Shown here in pieces: positions 15,170 through 21,740 of a stretch of DNA of 31,301 nt. A program made the position numbers and the translations under genes. The DNA lies in the IMG/VR virus record IMGVR_UViG_3300022925_000105, positions 1 to 31,301 of that record. The stretch is one strand, 5' to 3'. The stretch's first letter is position 1; each line of letters starts with the position of its first letter. Source of the stretch: a virus. The notes below the pieces were generated by a model. The model did not search any database. It saw nothing but the letters and a program-made list of their open reading frames with translations, and was not told where the DNA came from.

Positions 15170-15493
15170 ATGGCAACATTTGACATGGAAGAGTCAAAGC
15201 GACTCAAGGAACGCGGAATCAGGGTAGCAGCGGAAAAGCGACCGGAGCTATTGCGGATCGCCAGAACCATCGCGAAGGAGATCGCGGTATCTCAGGGAAC
15301 GGTCACAGCGGATGACGTTGCCGAGGAACTGCGAGATCGAGCACTCGGTGACATGGGGCCGGCTATGGCAGCAGTTTTCAGAAGTCGTGATTTCGAGTGG
15401 ACTGGGCTTCGGGTTATGTCGAAACAAGTAAGCAATCACGGACGCGAACTAAAGGTTTGGGCGACACGAAAGCAAGGAGCTGATCATGAATGA
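15170..15493 (+). CDS. Hypothetical protein, first gene of early block
   Basis: A 107-residue helical, basic protein of unknown family. Residues about 22-56 (PELLRIARTIAKEIAVSQG followed by TADDVAEELRDRAL) look like a helix-turn-helix or winged-helix element, and the rest contains AAVFRSRDFEWTG and SKQVSNHGRELKVW. It overlaps the helicase gene by 8 bases. As first gene after the terminator and promoter it may be an early regulator or a partner of the helicase, but this is inference. Two ATGs in frame (15170 and 15185) are possible; the upstream one is used. Confidence 0.62.
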   Translation: MATFDMEESKRLKERGIRVAAEKRPELLRIARTIAKEIAVSQGTVTADDVAEELRDRALGDMGPAMAAVFRSRDFEWTGLRVMSKQVSNHGRELKVWATRKQGADHE

Positions 15494-16871
15494 TTACGAG
15501 CTATTTATAGAGAGTAAAAGAAAGTCTCTGCAACCATGCGGATTTGGTCCAGTTTCTGAATTGAATAGGCATTTGTTCGACTGGCAGGCTCTCGTAGTCG
15601 AGTGGGCTTTGAAGCGTGGGCGTGCTGCACTATTTGAGGAGTGCGGACTCGGAAAGACGCTTCAGCAATTAAGCTGGGCGGAGCAAGTCGTAAAGAAAAC
15701 AGGAAAGCCGGTCGTTCTTCATTGTCCTGTTGGCGTTAGGCAGCAAACGAAGAGCGAAGCGGAAAAGTTCGGCATTGATGTTGATGTAGTTATCGCAAAT
15801 GAGCAGAGTGACGTCATCAATGGCGTCAACCTGGTCAACTATGAGAAGCTACATCATTTTGATCCGACTACGTTTGCCGGCGTCGTTCTTGATGAATCGT
15901 CGATATTGAAAAACGCATTCGGAAAGATTAAGCGGCATCTCGTGGAAGGATACAGCAAGACACCATATCGACTTGCATGTACAGCTACGCCGAGTCCAAA
16001 CGATCACATCGAGTTAGGCACTCACGCAGAGTTTCTCGGCATTTGCGAACGCGAGGATATGTTGAGCAAGTATTTCGTCCATGATGGAAGCGATACAAGC
16101 AAGTGGAGATTGCGAGGACATGCAAAAAAGCATTTCTGGGAGTGGGTTGCTTCGTGGTCAGTTTGCATCAGCAAGCCAAGCGACATCGGCGGAGATGATA
16201 CCGGATACGAGTTGCCGGAATTGTACGTCAGGCGTCACACGGTCGAGGTCAACGAGAACAACGAAGTAGAAGGCTATCTGTTTAATACGTCTGGAATATC
16301 TGCAACAACAGTTCACGAAGAAAAAAGGCTTACGTGTGAAGCACGATGTAATCGCGTGGCGGAAATTGTGAACGAGCTAGATGAGCCTGTTATTATTTGG
16401 TGCGATACAAACTATGAAGCCGATGCACTTCTCGACCGATTATCTAATTGCTCGGAGATCAGAGGATGTCACAAGGAATCATACAAGGAGTCGCTGCTAA
16501 ATGATTTCAGTAGCGGCAATATTCAAAAGCTAATCACAAAGCCAAGCGTGGCTGGATTCGGCATGAATTGGCAGCACTGTAAGCGTCAGGTCTTTGCAGG
16601 TCTTTCGTATAGCTTTGAGAGCTATTATCAGGCGGTGAGGCGTTGCTGGCGATTCGGGCAGACCGATGATGTTTACGTTGACATTGTTCTGGCTAATACC
16701 GAATCGTCCCTGCATTCAGCCGTTGCGAGCAAAGAGGCAGATCACAGGCTGATGCGGTCTGAAATGGCAGAAGCGATGCGAACTGTATCGCGAAAGAATA
16801 TCGGAATTGATAAAGGCAAGGCACGTTACCAGCCGGCCATCAATGCAACCATACCATCGTTTTTAGGATAA
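15486..16871 (+). CDS. SF2 (SNF2/DEAD-like) helicase
   Basis: A 461-residue ATPase of helicase superfamily 2. Motifs in order: GLGKT Walker A at residues 54-58, DESS (motif II variant of DEAH) at 136-139, TATPS motif III at 166-170, and QAVRRCWRFGQ motif VI at 382-392 with the arginine fingers. The arrangement fits SNF2-like phage helicases that remodel or unwind DNA at forks or recombination intermediates. It sits directly before a DNA methyltransferase gene, a pairing seen in other phages. The start ATG is close to the stop of the previous gene. Exact substrate cannot be read from sequence. Confidence 0.9.
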   Translation: MNDYELFIESKRKSLQPCGFGPVSELNRHLFDWQALVVEWALKRGRAALFEECGLGKTLQQLSWAEQVVKKTGKPVVLHCPVGVRQQTKSEAEKFGIDVDVVIANEQSDVINGVNLVNYEKLHHFDPTTFAGVVLDESSILKNAFGKIKRHLVEGYSKTPYRLACTATPSPNDHIELGTHAEFLGICEREDMLSKYFVHDGSDTSKWRLRGHAKKHFWEWVASWSVCISKPSDIGGDDTGYELPELYVRRHTVEVNENNEVEGYLFNTSGISATTVHEEKRLTCEARCNRVAEIVNELDEPVIIWCDTNYEADALLDRLSNCSEIRGCHKESYKESLLNDFSSGNIQKLITKPSVAGFGMNWQHCKRQVFAGLSYSFESYYQAVRRCWRFGQTDDVYVDIVLANTESSLHSAVASKEADHRLMRSEMAEAMRTVSRKNIGIDKGKARYQPAINATIPSFLG

Positions 16872-16874
16872 GAA

Positions 16875-17801
16875 ATGAATAGTGCAATCAATCAAGAGAG
16901 CGGCGAGAATTGGCATTTATATCACGGCGATTGCTGTGAGGTGTTGAATCTAATGCCAGATAACTCGATGGACTTCAGTGTATTTAGCCCGCCATTCGCG
17001 AGCTTATATGTTTACAGCGATAGCGAACGCGACATGGGAAACAATGAGACTGACGAGCTTTTCTTTGCTCACTTTAAGTTTCTAGTTGATTTGCTTCTGA
17101 AAAAGATCAAGCCAGGTCGATTGGTCTCGGTTCACTGCATGAATTTACCGTCAACCATAAGCCATCAAGGTTATATTGGCATCCGCGATTTCAGAGGCGA
17201 GATAATTAGGACGTTTGTGGAGTCTGGGTTTTACTATCACAGCGAAGTTTGCATCTGGAAAGATCCAGTTGTAGCAATGCAGAGAACGAAAGCACTTGGA
17301 CTACTTCATAAGCAAGTCAAAAAAGATTCGACAATGAGCAGGCAAGGCATACCCGACTACGTGTGCACATTCAGAAAGCCAGGTAAAAACGAAAGTCCAG
17401 TAGCAGGAGAGTTTAAGTATTTTGCCGGCGATGTCGATGAATTTAATAAGCGAGAGAAACCTGGCAACCTGTCTATTGATATTTGGCAACGGTATGCGTC
17501 GCCTGTCTGGATGGACATAAAGCAAAGCAACACGCTGAACAGCAGAATGGGCCGAGAAAGCAACGACGAGAGACACGTCTGCCCATTGCAGTTGGATGTA
17601 ATCGAGCGATGCTTGCAGCTATGGAGCAATCCAGGCGATGTCGTGTTATCACCATTCGCTGGAATTGGATCTGAGGGCGTTGCGTCATTGAGAGCCGGCA
17701 GAAAGTTTGTCGGAGTTGAACTTAAACAGAGCTACTTTGATGCAGCAAAGGGATTTCTAAAAAGCGAAGAATCAGAGCAAGCTATACCATCACTTTTCTA
17801 A
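16875..17801 (+). CDS. DNA methyltransferase (N6-adenine/N4-cytosine, beta class)
   Basis: A 308-residue S-adenosylmethionine-dependent DNA methylase. The catalytic motif IV is SPPF at residues 38-41, and the AdoMet-binding motif I is SPFAGIG at 259-265 near the C-terminus. The order IV then I marks the beta class, which includes N6-adenine and N4-cytosine enzymes. No restriction endonuclease gene is next to it, so it is an orphan, most likely protecting phage DNA against host restriction or marking DNA for the phage's own use. It lies three bases after the helicase stop. The recognition sequence is not predictable from this alone. Confidence 0.9.
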   Translation: MNSAINQESGENWHLYHGDCCEVLNLMPDNSMDFSVFSPPFASLYVYSDSERDMGNNETDELFFAHFKFLVDLLLKKIKPGRLVSVHCMNLPSTISHQGYIGIRDFRGEIIRTFVESGFYYHSEVCIWKDPVVAMQRTKALGLLHKQVKKDSTMSRQGIPDYVCTFRKPGKNESPVAGEFKYFAGDVDEFNKREKPGNLSIDIWQRYASPVWMDIKQSNTLNSRMGRESNDERHVCPLQLDVIERCLQLWSNPGDVVLSPFAGIGSEGVASLRAGRKFVGVELKQSYFDAAKGFLKSEESEQAIPSLF

Positions 17802-18653: not shown

Positions 18654-18919
18654 CTGATTGGGTATTCAGGGGAGAGAGACGCCGGCAATTTGATGACTGG
18701 TGGGAAATAGCAAAGCCGCAATTCAATATGCCGGACGATCCAAAAGTACAGATCAGCGGCAAGCAAGGCGACTTTATGCTGGCTTGCCTGCGAGCATACG
18801 AGCAAGGACGGATCGACGAGCGAGAGGACGCACACGAGATCCGCAAAGAGTACGACGCGACTGGTAGGGTCAGTCGCTTTTCTGATGTAACGCTAACGCG
18901 AGAGGATAGCGATGAGTGA
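18650..18919 (+). CDS. Hypothetical protein
   Basis: An 89-residue acidic protein, with a WVFRGERRRQFDDWWEIAKP N-terminus and helical CLRAYEQGRIDEREDAHEI near the centre. It is coupled upstream by ATGA to the tiny membrane peptide and overlaps the RecT-like gene by eight bases. No family recognised and no motif for enzyme activity. It is placed with the recombination genes, so an accessory role to them is possible but unsupported. Confidence 0.62.
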   Translation: MTDWVFRGERRRQFDDWWEIAKPQFNMPDDPKVQISGKQGDFMLACLRAYEQGRIDEREDAHEIRKEYDATGRVSRFSDVTLTREDSDE

Positions 18920-19502
18920 AGAGAACGAGTTGATAGAGATGCCGGCAGTTATCGAGACGGAAAGAGAGCCAGAAACCGCTTTGGCTTTGGTCGAGGCGGA
19001 TACGCGAAAGTTTGAGCTGGTGCAGCGAGAAGCAAAACTGCTTTCATCATCCAAGTTGGTTCCGACTCATTACCAGGGCAACATCGCTGATGTAGTGGTA
19101 GCCATGAACATGGCTCGCCGGATGAACGCAGATCCGTTGATGGTGATGCAGTCGCTGCACATCATCCATGGGAAGCCTGGTTGGTCTGCTCAGTTCCTGA
19201 TTGCGAGCTTTAACGCTTGCGGAAAGTTCGGGGCAGTTTACTACGAGTTCAACGACGACAAGAGCGAGTGCACGGCAAAGACTGTCGAGCTTGCGACCGG
19301 AAGAGAGATCGCCGGCCCGATGGTCTCGCTGGAAATGGCGAAGGGTGAAGGATGGGCCACCAAGACGGGATCGAAATGGAAAACGATGCCAGAGCTGATG
19401 CTGAGATACAGAGCAGCAGCATTTCTGATAAGAACCACAGCACCTGAGATCGGCTTGGGGCTATACACGACCGACGAATTGAGAGACATCGACAATGGCT
19501 AG
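18912..19502 (+). CDS. RecT-like single-strand annealing protein
   Basis: A 196-residue protein resembling the RecT/Red-beta superfamily of annealing proteins, which pair complementary single strands during phage recombination and replication. Family-like features: an N-terminal acidic region, then SKLVPTHYQGNIADVVVAMN, ADPLMVMQSLHIIHGKPGW, FLIASFNACGKFG, and the strongly conserved-looking TMPELMLRYRAAAFLIRTTA near residues 157-176. SSB follows immediately, with an eight-base overlap, and a nuclease-like gene comes next, forming a typical recombination unit. Shorter than RecT of Rac (269 residues). No exonuclease domain in this protein. Confidence 0.75.
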   Translation: MSEENELIEMPAVIETEREPETALALVEADTRKFELVQREAKLLSSSKLVPTHYQGNIADVVVAMNMARRMNADPLMVMQSLHIIHGKPGWSAQFLIASFNACGKFGAVYYEFNDDKSECTAKTVELATGREIAGPMVSLEMAKGEGWATKTGSKWKTMPELMLRYRAAAFLIRTTAPEIGLGLYTTDELRDIDNG

Positions 19503-19893
19503 TCTGAACAAAGTGCAAGTGATCGGAAACGTCACGAGAGACATCGAGCTAAAGCGTACACCAGGCGGAAACGCTGTCTGTGATGTAGGCGTAGCAATCA
19601 ACGAGAAGCGAAAGGACGCAGGCGGGAAATGGGTCGAGGAAGTTTTATTTTTAGATGTAACGCTCTGGGGTCGGACAGCCGAAGTCGCAGCCGAGTACGC
19701 CGGCAAAGGTGCGCCAGTCTACCTGGAAGGCAGAATGAAGATGGATGTTTGGACGGATCAGAGCGGACAGGAACGGAAGAAGCTCAAGGTGATCGGGGAT
19801 CGGTTGCAGTTACTCGGCGGGAGGTCGGAAGCAACGCCGGCACCGAAACCAGCACCGAAGCCGGAACCTTCAGCCGATGAGTTCCCATTCTGA
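19495..19893 (+). CDS. ssb: Single-stranded DNA-binding protein
   Basis: A 132-residue SSB with an N-terminal OB-fold, beginning SLNKVQVIGNVTRDIELKRT and including VAINEKRKDAGGKWVEE and EGRMKMDVWTDQSG. A proline-rich linker (PAPKPAPKPEP) follows, then an acidic tip ending DEFPF, equivalent to the DDIPF tail of E. coli SSB that recruits partner enzymes. It protects single strands at the fork and in recombination. It is coupled to the RecT-like gene and precedes a nuclease-like gene, so the C-terminal tip may recruit those proteins. Confidence 0.95.
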   Translation: MASLNKVQVIGNVTRDIELKRTPGGNAVCDVGVAINEKRKDAGGKWVEEVLFLDVTLWGRTAEVAAEYAGKGAPVYLEGRMKMDVWTDQSGQERKKLKVIGDRLQLLGGRSEATPAPKPAPKPEPSADEFPF

Positions 19894-20385: not shown

Positions 20386-20570
20386 TGCAGATTAAGAGTG
20401 CAAAGAACATTAACGATCTTCGCGAGTGCATTGCGGAGATCGAGTACGACAAGTGGGAAGAGATGGAATGGACAATGGATCAAGCAAAGATGAATCGGGT
20501 TAGGAATTATTTTGCCTTTAAGTGCATGTCGATGGGAATAAAGACTAGCGAGGTGAGCGATGGCCGGTGA
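20382..20570 (+). CDS. Small hypothetical protein
   Basis: A 62-residue helical protein starting MMQIKSAKNINDL, chosen because the ATG overlaps the preceding stop (ATGA). In-frame alternatives at 20352 (ATG) and 20337 (TTG) would overlap the previous gene more. It is acidic in the middle (IEYDKWEEMEWTMD) and has no motif I recognise. Its end overlaps the initiator gene by 11 bases. Likely part of the replication/recombination operon. Confidence 0.55.
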   Translation: MMQIKSAKNINDLRECIAEIEYDKWEEMEWTMDQAKMNRVRNYFAFKCMSMGIKTSEVSDGR

Positions 20571-21246
20571 TTGGATCAAGATGCGGATCGACTTAATGGA
20601 AGATCCGGCGGTCATGCAGATGGCGGACGAACTAGAGATCCGAGAGGAGGCGATCGTCGGATACTGTCACGCTCTTTGGTCATGGGTGTCACGCCAATGT
20701 CACGCCGACACCGTGACAGGTGTTACGCTTGCGTCACTCGGACGTCGCATTAACTTGCCTGGCTTTCCCGAATTGATGTGTGACGTCGGTTGGCTTGAAT
20801 ACGACGAAAGCGGCGAGCGTCCGGTGATACGGATACCGAACTGGGATCGCCATCTCTCGCAAAGTGCAAAAAAACGGGCAAATGACGCTAATCGGCAAGC
20901 AAATCGTCGCAAAAGCGTCACGCAGGCGTCACGCTCAACTTGTGACAACAGCGTGACTAGAGAAGAGAAGAGAAGAGAAGAGAAGAATATACACTCTCAC
21001 CCACAGTCGGAAGGTTTCGCGAAGGAATGGACTCGGTGGTGCGAGTTCCGCTTCTCGGTAGATGGCCGGCAGATTCCAGAGGTGCAAGCAGAGTCGATTC
21101 TAATGGAGTTGCATCGACGCGGCCCAGAAAAGGCAAAGCGAGATATTGACTTCAGCATCCAAAAAGGTGCTAGGTCGATACTTGATAGCGACAACGACTT
21201 CGGGAAACAACGCAGCAAACCAAAGACAGTGGATCTAGGGATATGA
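20560..21246 (+). CDS. Replication initiator (O-like) carrying its own origin
   Basis: A 228-residue protein whose N-terminal part (about residues 1-90), starting GDWIKMRIDLMEDPAVMQMA, looks like the winged-helix DNA-binding domain of phage O-like/DnaD-like initiators. A basic linker with REEKRREEKN (residues 134-143) and a C-terminal helical region follow. Such proteins bind iterons in their own gene and recruit the helicase loader. The DNA of this gene contains a cluster of GTCACGC-type repeats (see the origin entry). The following gene looks like a helicase loader, supporting the assignment. The start is in the previous gene. Confidence 0.7.
   Translation: MAGDWIKMRIDLMEDPAVMQMADELEIREEAIVGYCHALWSWVSRQCHADTVTGVTLASLGRRINLPGFPELMCDVGWLEYDESGERPVIRIPNWDRHLSQSAKKRANDANRQANRRKSVTQASRSTCDNSVTREEKRREEKNIHSHPQSEGFAKEWTRWCEFRFSVDGRQIPEVQAESILMELHRRGPEKAKRDIDFSIQKGARSILDSDNDFGKQRSKPKTVDLGI
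20665..20995 (+). other. Replication origin candidate: iterons plus GAGAA run inside initiator gene
   Basis: Copies of GTCACGC or close variants occur at 20665-20672, 20687-20694, 20698-20705, 20721-20728 (TGTTACGC), 20732-20739 (CGTCACTC), 20916-20923 and 20927-20934, with inverted copies at 20713-20718 (GTGACA), 20942-20947 and 20951-20957. A 7-mer should occur only a few times in the whole window on both strands, so this clustering is far above chance. After them, 20958-20986 is a purine run of repeated AGAAG units, followed by an AT-rich stretch (AATATACA). Iterons followed by an easily opened segment inside the initiator gene is the layout of lambda ori in gene O. Confidence 0.6.
20958..20986 (+). 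repeat. AGAAG pentamer tandem repeat
   Basis: About six head-to-tail AGAAG units make a pure purine strand within the initiator gene, encoding the basic REEKRREEK stretch. Purine-strand asymmetry of this kind is common at duplex-opening regions. It directly follows the iteron cluster. The repeat may also change length by slippage; in-frame changes need three units, so gain or loss of one would break the gene. Confidence 0.7.
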
Positions 21247-21740
21247 AAACAGCAGAAGCAAGAACAGAGCTAGGTAGAGTGCTGACGGTGTTTCCCAGTT
21301 ATCGCCAATGGCTTGAAGCAACCAGCAAACCGAAAGAGACGCTTGACGCTTGGTGCGAGATGCTGAGCGACTGCGATGCCAGCGACGTCACGCAACTGGT
21401 CTCCGAGATAGTGGCCGGCGACTTCGAGCCGGTTGGTCGCTACGAAAAGCCAGACGTCCTAGCAAGGAACATCAAGCGAGAAGCGAATGACCGACGGTTC
21501 AAGCGAGTCGAGAAAGAGCGGCAGATGCGGAACTACCACGGACAAAGCAAGAACGCGATGAAGATCGTCGGCGATATGATCACAGGTAAACTTGCAATCA
21601 GGCTTGGAACTTTGGTAGAAGCGAAACAGCTAACGCTGGAGCAAAATGAAATGATGATGGACGAACTAATGGAATGGGATCGCCAAGTCAGGAACGGAAA
21701 CAAAGAAGCACAGAAGCCGGAGTGGTTTGAGTATGTTTGA
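21243..21740 (+). CDS. Helicase-loader-like replication protein
   Basis: A 165-residue helical protein, starting at an overlap with the initiator gene. The N-terminal part (FPSYRQWLEATSKPKETLDA near residues 17-36, then EMLSDCDASDVTQLVSEIV) resembles the N-terminal fold of G39P/DnaC-like helicase loaders, which bring the replicative helicase to the initiator. The C-terminal half is charged and helical. Its place right after an O-like initiator parallels lambda O-P. No replicative helicase is in the window other than the SF2 enzyme, so the host DnaB is presumably the target. Similarity is by eye and moderate. Confidence 0.5.
   Translation: MKTAEARTELGRVLTVFPSYRQWLEATSKPKETLDAWCEMLSDCDASDVTQLVSEIVAGDFEPVGRYEKPDVLARNIKREANDRRFKRVEKERQMRNYHGQSKNAMKIVGDMITGKLAIRLGTLVEAKQLTLEQNEMMMDELMEWDRQVRNGNKEAQKPEWFEYV

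Follow-up and report, generated by a model that had tools for sequence, protein, structure and literature searches.

Why should a phage replication gene carry, inside its own coding sequence, a dense array of near-identical short sites? The question is raised by the IMG/VR virus record IMGVR_UViG_3300022925_000105, the whole of which (31,301 b) is the window analyzed here, and by the gene in it that codes for a replication initiator of the family phrog_2509. We consider it very likely that the array is a phage theta replication origin that lies within the gene for its own initiator. The best reading is an origin of the lambda and SPP1 kind, with an initiator family that by Pfam is not that of lambda O, and the protein very probably binds the sites in its own gene to start the copying of the genome. 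The elements of the locus are listed below, with R standing for GTCACGC and F for GCGTGAC.

20560 to 21246, + strand: replication initiator gene, 228 aa, phrog_2509 (PHROG 2509 E=1.4e-41, AlphaFold2 (AF2) model).
20666 to 20739: cluster 1, six GTCACGC-type sites (20666R, 20688R, 20699R, 20711F, 20722R, 20733R).
20778 to 20784, - strand: outlying GTCACAC site (GTGTGAC on the + strand, listed as 20778F).
20917 to 20957: cluster 2, four sites (20917R, 20928R, 20940F with the core only, 20951F).
20959 to 20987, + strand: 29-nt purine tract (AGAGA)n, free of pyrimidines, encoding REEKRREEK.
20988 to 21006, + strand: weakly AT-rich stretch 3' of the tract, possibly part of an unwinding region.

Exact copies of GTCACGC/GCGTGAC were found 13 times across the 31.3-kb window, six of them within 20666-20957. 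With one mismatch allowed the motif was not enriched over the window as a whole (100 found vs. 113 expected), indicating that the signal is a local cluster. Ten GTCAC/GTGAC cores lie inside the initiator gene (20666-20957, ~290 bp) vs. 47 in the other 30.6 kb. A preliminary description of this DNA had reported about ten GTCACGC-type sites in two clusters of the initiator gene, at 20665-20995 and well beyond chance, and our counts agree with it on all these points. When every 6- and 7-mer of the window was counted over stretches of 300 bp, this array was the densest cluster. When synonymous codons were shuffled within the gene the core count was reached in 128 of 20,000 cases and the heptamer count in only 8, while resampling with the codon usage of the genome reached the core count in 2 of 20,000. 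The array is located 100-400 nt into the coding region, and its sites follow each other mostly in steps of 11-12 bp in both clusters (22, 11, 12, 11, and 11 bp in cluster 1, which lies in the winged-helix coding sequence and includes one site with a mismatch, GTTACGC at 20722R).

Only one base separates the last site of cluster 2 from the purine tract, and the codons of this tract are telling. In the family, tracts were located by their peptide, which left the choice of codon free. Among 103 family genes the arginine codons of the tract were 278 AGA, one AGG and no CGN, while elsewhere in these genes AGA made up 133 of 2,047 (6.5%), indicating that the tract is selected as DNA.

Most members of the family have an array of their own. 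Relatives were taken from both bacterial genomes and viral contigs, and 115 below 80% identity were kept. The best 6-mer was present at least six times in the first 480 nt in 65% of these; for control windows the figure was 3.8% and for synonymous shuffles 1.2%. In 94 genes, 606 class 6-mers were counted upstream of the tract vs. a shuffle mean of 134 and a maximum of 163; the motif class was picked per gene, which somewhat favors the observed value, but the gap is still more than 4-fold. The letters of the sites differ among clades (GCGTGAC, GCGTTAC, GCGGAC, GCGTCAC, TGTGAC, GTCTAC, GCGACA, CGGGAC), although the geometry relative to the tract, -42R/-31R/-18F/-7F, is constant. The 6-mers of cluster 2 in the window sit at exactly these positions (-42, -31, -18, and -7), i.e., on the conserved template of the family, of which single genes occupy two to four slots, some of them slightly shifted, and cluster 1 of the family has the same R-R-F spacing as the sites before the tract. 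The manner in which the layout is conserved across so large a family calls for selection acting on the DNA itself.

On a tree of 114 N-termini (poorly resolved) the site class switches at least 12 times. Within the clade of the window a single base of the site has been switched, giving GTGACA in the window and loci L002 and L003, GCGACA in L004 and GGGACA in L008 and L009, and the change spans the array, largely at matching gene positions. The peptides of the linker vary in step with the site letters. One relative, L033, is unusually dense, with 13 CGTCAC-type sites before the tract, exceeding the other relatives. The chromosome of the Planctomycetes bacterium TBK1r carries two related initiator loci (L239, L240) ~44 kb apart, and the origin of several relatives from Planctomycetes gives a hint of the host group.

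The initiator itself matches the phrog_2509 profile over residues 1-150, as do 108 of 108 aligned members. The AF2 model (mean predicted local distance difference test score, pLDDT, 82, with most N-terminal blocks >90) gives, with confidence, a winged-helix N-terminal domain at ~16-119; residues 101-119 form a long helix, and at 151-217 there is a C-terminal domain made of helices. The latter differs among relatives, being of the DnaT type in epsilon15. A sequence search of the PDB with the initiator gave no match, and the fold search there gave only weak winged-helix matches; among viral matches of the fold search were Primosomal protein 1 and Replisome organizer. We found no replication initiation experiment on any phrog_2509 member in the open-access literature searched. 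As to the residues that may determine specificity, the site letters shape the protein where they overlap it (codons 49-67 and 113-131 of relatives), with DGHA/DGNA and RDGF/VTGF tracking GTCACGC/GTAACGC, so that apparent specificity residues can be artifacts. The best separators of site classes, residues 51, 66, and 67, were rejected because their codons overlap sites. After this overlap was masked, positions 105, 109, 113, and 116 on helix 101-119 remained, with 2-4 independent switches and no significance.

The surroundings of the initiator gene are those of a replication and recombination block:

18912 to 19502, + strand: RecT-like annealing protein gene (phrog_561 E=4.3e-67).
19495 to 19893, + strand: SSB gene (Pfam SSB E=2.8e-30).
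21243 to 21740, + strand: next gene after the initiator, 165 aa, all-helical, candidate helicase loader (AF2 model, position).

The RecT (18912) and SSB (19495) genes precede the initiator gene and the 165-aa gene overlaps its stop codon. Among the best PHROG matches listed for the window open reading frames (ORFs), none pointed strongly to a DnaB helicase, a primase or a polymerase. Upstream of the block, at 15486-17801, there is a SNF2-type helicase gene and, after it, one for an N6/N4 DNA methylase. In the relatives the position after the initiator is often taken by a helicase or loader gene: of 93 next genes, Pfam identified 25 as DnaB_C, 21 as lambda P and 11 as IstB/DnaC-like, and PHROGs gave 25 DnaB, 25 P-like and 14 DnaC-like, so that a DnaB helicase or a P-/DnaC-like loader is the next gene in ~65%. 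Many relatives have a loader gene in this position; in the window, the loader-like status given to the gene by the preliminary description rests on position and on a non-significant fold match (E=0.94).

The sites, their geometry, their conserved context and the selection at the DNA level on both sites and tract are matters of observation, and from this layout and selection we infer that the locus of the window works like the origins of lambda and SPP1. The winged-helix N-terminal domain is predicted to bind the 7-bp sites of both clusters, which, being about one helical turn apart, lie on one face of the DNA, and the bound domains would build a nucleoprotein complex. By analogy with lambda, strain from this complex would open the adjoining (AGAGA)n tract, with its purine/pyrimidine asymmetry, together with the short stretch of higher AT content that follows. 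The C-terminal domain, the product of the next gene or both could then bring the host DnaB helicase to the opened strand.

Several observations weigh against such an origin. The preliminary description had seen a purine tract followed by an AT-rich stretch; the tract is there (29 nt), but the AT-richness is weak and narrow: the window has 55% AT across 20 nt, and the family mean in the 20 nt 3' of the tract is 56.5% vs. a background of 42.6% (~14 points higher). The GC-skew check that it had suggested was run and the skew of the window keeps its sign at the site. A clear array is absent in ~18 of the 114 sequences of the tree set, mostly outliers. Finally, the next gene of the window is not demonstrably a loader: its best PDB fold match, lambda P in 9oa1, is non-significant (E=0.94), it has no sequence similarity to P-like loaders, and no relatives of it were found in the phage collection.

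Could the array do something else? Phage DNA-binding proteins often regulate themselves, and the sites might form an autoregulatory operator that limits transcription or copy number, with replication beginning elsewhere. The array does lie within a transcribed gene, and the two clusters could have two roles, cluster 1 being the regulatory one. However, it lies well inside the coding region, not at a promoter, and its fixed register to a tract selected as DNA, together with the helicase and loader genes downstream, fits an origin better. We therefore regard autoregulation as an unlikely explanation of the array, which could nevertheless have it as a secondary function. Partition is a further alternative, since partition systems, too, can have winged-helix proteins that bind clustered short sites, and one of the weak fold matches of the initiator was the centromere-binding protein AspA (5k5q, E=0.15). 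That the protein reads the array as a centromere-like site or as a packaging site seems nonetheless very improbable to us. No parA-like gene was seen for the window ORFs in their best PHROG matches, among the matches listed, and the initiator PHROG, the SSB and RecT neighbors and the helicase or loader genes of relatives favor replication.

The repeats might also reflect constraint on the protein, i.e., on the VT/SR/RD and REEKRREEK peptides, without any function of the DNA; the charged peptide REEKRREEK is indeed conserved, and the linker contains VT and SR more than once. Yet the sites use all three codon frames, which excludes a peptide repeat, their excess is lost in synonymous shuffles, and the linker peptides follow the site letters. 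The nearly exclusive use of AGA in the tract (278 of 279 arginine codons) likewise contradicts it. We find this explanation scarcely credible and reject it on the frame, codon and shuffle tests.

The purine tract is also present outside the family. We scanned viral contigs for its 23-nt form; all figures on non-family loci refer to the matches listed. About one third of the tract loci analyzed sit in another type of gene. Among 36 of the non-family tract ORFs there were matches to several PHROG families with replication initiation, O-like or primosomal annotations, although some of these matches may rest on the charged peptide itself and eight of the ORFs still match phrog_2509. A 6-mer was repeated at least three times in the 120 nt before the tract at 74% of non-family and 94% of family loci, vs. 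13% of control windows. The 23-nt AGAGAAGAGAAGAGAAGAGAAGA tract (L392-L509) was seen in unrelated-looking phage replisome-organizer genes, for example of the MAKELPYFKF-, MTWFKFYG- and KWFKHD-types, many with their own short repeats upstream. One other initiator family, found by protein, has several members with 11-bp-phased repeats followed by a purine tract; here the tract arginines are AGA in 33 of 33, but AGA is common in those genomes and the codon evidence is weak. Tentatively, and with the balance still slightly against it, we suggest that the 23-nt (AGAGA)n is a general phage origin element (for unwinding or helicase loading) used by several unrelated or distant initiator families, each of which writes its own phased sites upstream, with the whole set of sites rewritten in step with the initiator within a family.

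Intragenic phage origins are of an already known kind. What looks new is the concerted rewriting of the sites within a fixed geometry and the (AGAGA)n tract common to other initiator families. No description of the two-cluster 7-bp architecture, the concerted rewriting or the shared tract was found in the open-access literature searched, nor any relevant paper on the tract or its peptide. Since the initiator and its probable binding sites share one stretch of DNA, every genome holds a protein together with the sites matched to it, and with eight or more site classes in an unchanged geometry the family is a natural data set on the joint change of specificity of initiator and origin. With the shared tract, origins of uncultured phages could be recognized from sequence in a simple way, and melting or helicase loading could be studied on a defined piece of DNA.

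Among known systems, the lambda origin (also P22 gene 18 and the Stx phages) is similar: initiator sites occupy the central part of the initiator gene and a purine-asymmetric region comes after them, the N-terminal part binds DNA (as predicted here), and a loader or helicase gene adjoins (here in many relatives). The lambda-like layout of the preliminary description holds in this sense, with a winged-helix N-terminal domain, repeats in the gene, a strand-asymmetric purine tract, a variable C-terminal domain and, in most cases, a following gene for a loader or a helicase. In the lambda O gene that we compared the iterons are mid-gene and an 18-nt purine run follows; the AT-rich region of lambda is described as having nearly all purines on one strand (PMC5043065). 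However, lambda has four iterons of 18 bp, each an inverted repeat (six in Stx phages), while the window has 10-11 sites of 7 bp in two clusters, at ~11-bp steps, plus a tract of 5-nt repeats. The proteins differ as well: lambda O and P22 18 match Pfam Phage_rep_O (PF04492), but neither the window protein nor any of 108 relatives does, so that by Pfam they are not members of the lambda O family.

In SPP1, gp38 binds the direct repeats of oriL inside gene 38, adjoining the DNA unwinding element (DUE), and initiation requires the phage loader gp39 and the helicase gp40 (PMC6316719). The likeness lies in the origin, here a probable one, inside the gene of the origin-binding protein and in the direct repeats beside an unwinding element, here a possible one, together with the loader and helicase genes that relatives have. 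In contrast, SPP1 has its own DnaB-type helicase and a second origin, oriR, while nothing DnaB-like appeared in the best PHROG matches of the window, among the matches listed.

A further comparison is within phrog_2509, and one member is in the Rac prophage. Rac ydaU has two allelic forms (L515:9221-10078 and L387:1228-2016) with near-identical C-termini. That of E. coli 442/2 has a phrog_2509-type N-terminus, six GCGTTAC sites and a AGAGGAAGAGG tract; in K-12 MG1655 the N-terminus is of another kind (annotated DUF1376), and three TGTTTGAA-type repeats are present but no tract. N-terminus and sites appear to swap as a cassette. Because of this different N-terminus and the missing tract in K-12, we discarded Rac oriJ as direct proof, and it does not validate the phrog_2509 family. 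The records of epsilon15 and Xanthomonas phage CP2 that we examined annotate the protein as initiator and list no origin feature. Epsilon15, the 442/2 ydaU and CP2 all belong to the family of the window protein and, with other site letters (GCGGAC, GCGTTAC) and varying C-terminal domains, each carries an intragenic array followed by the purine tract.
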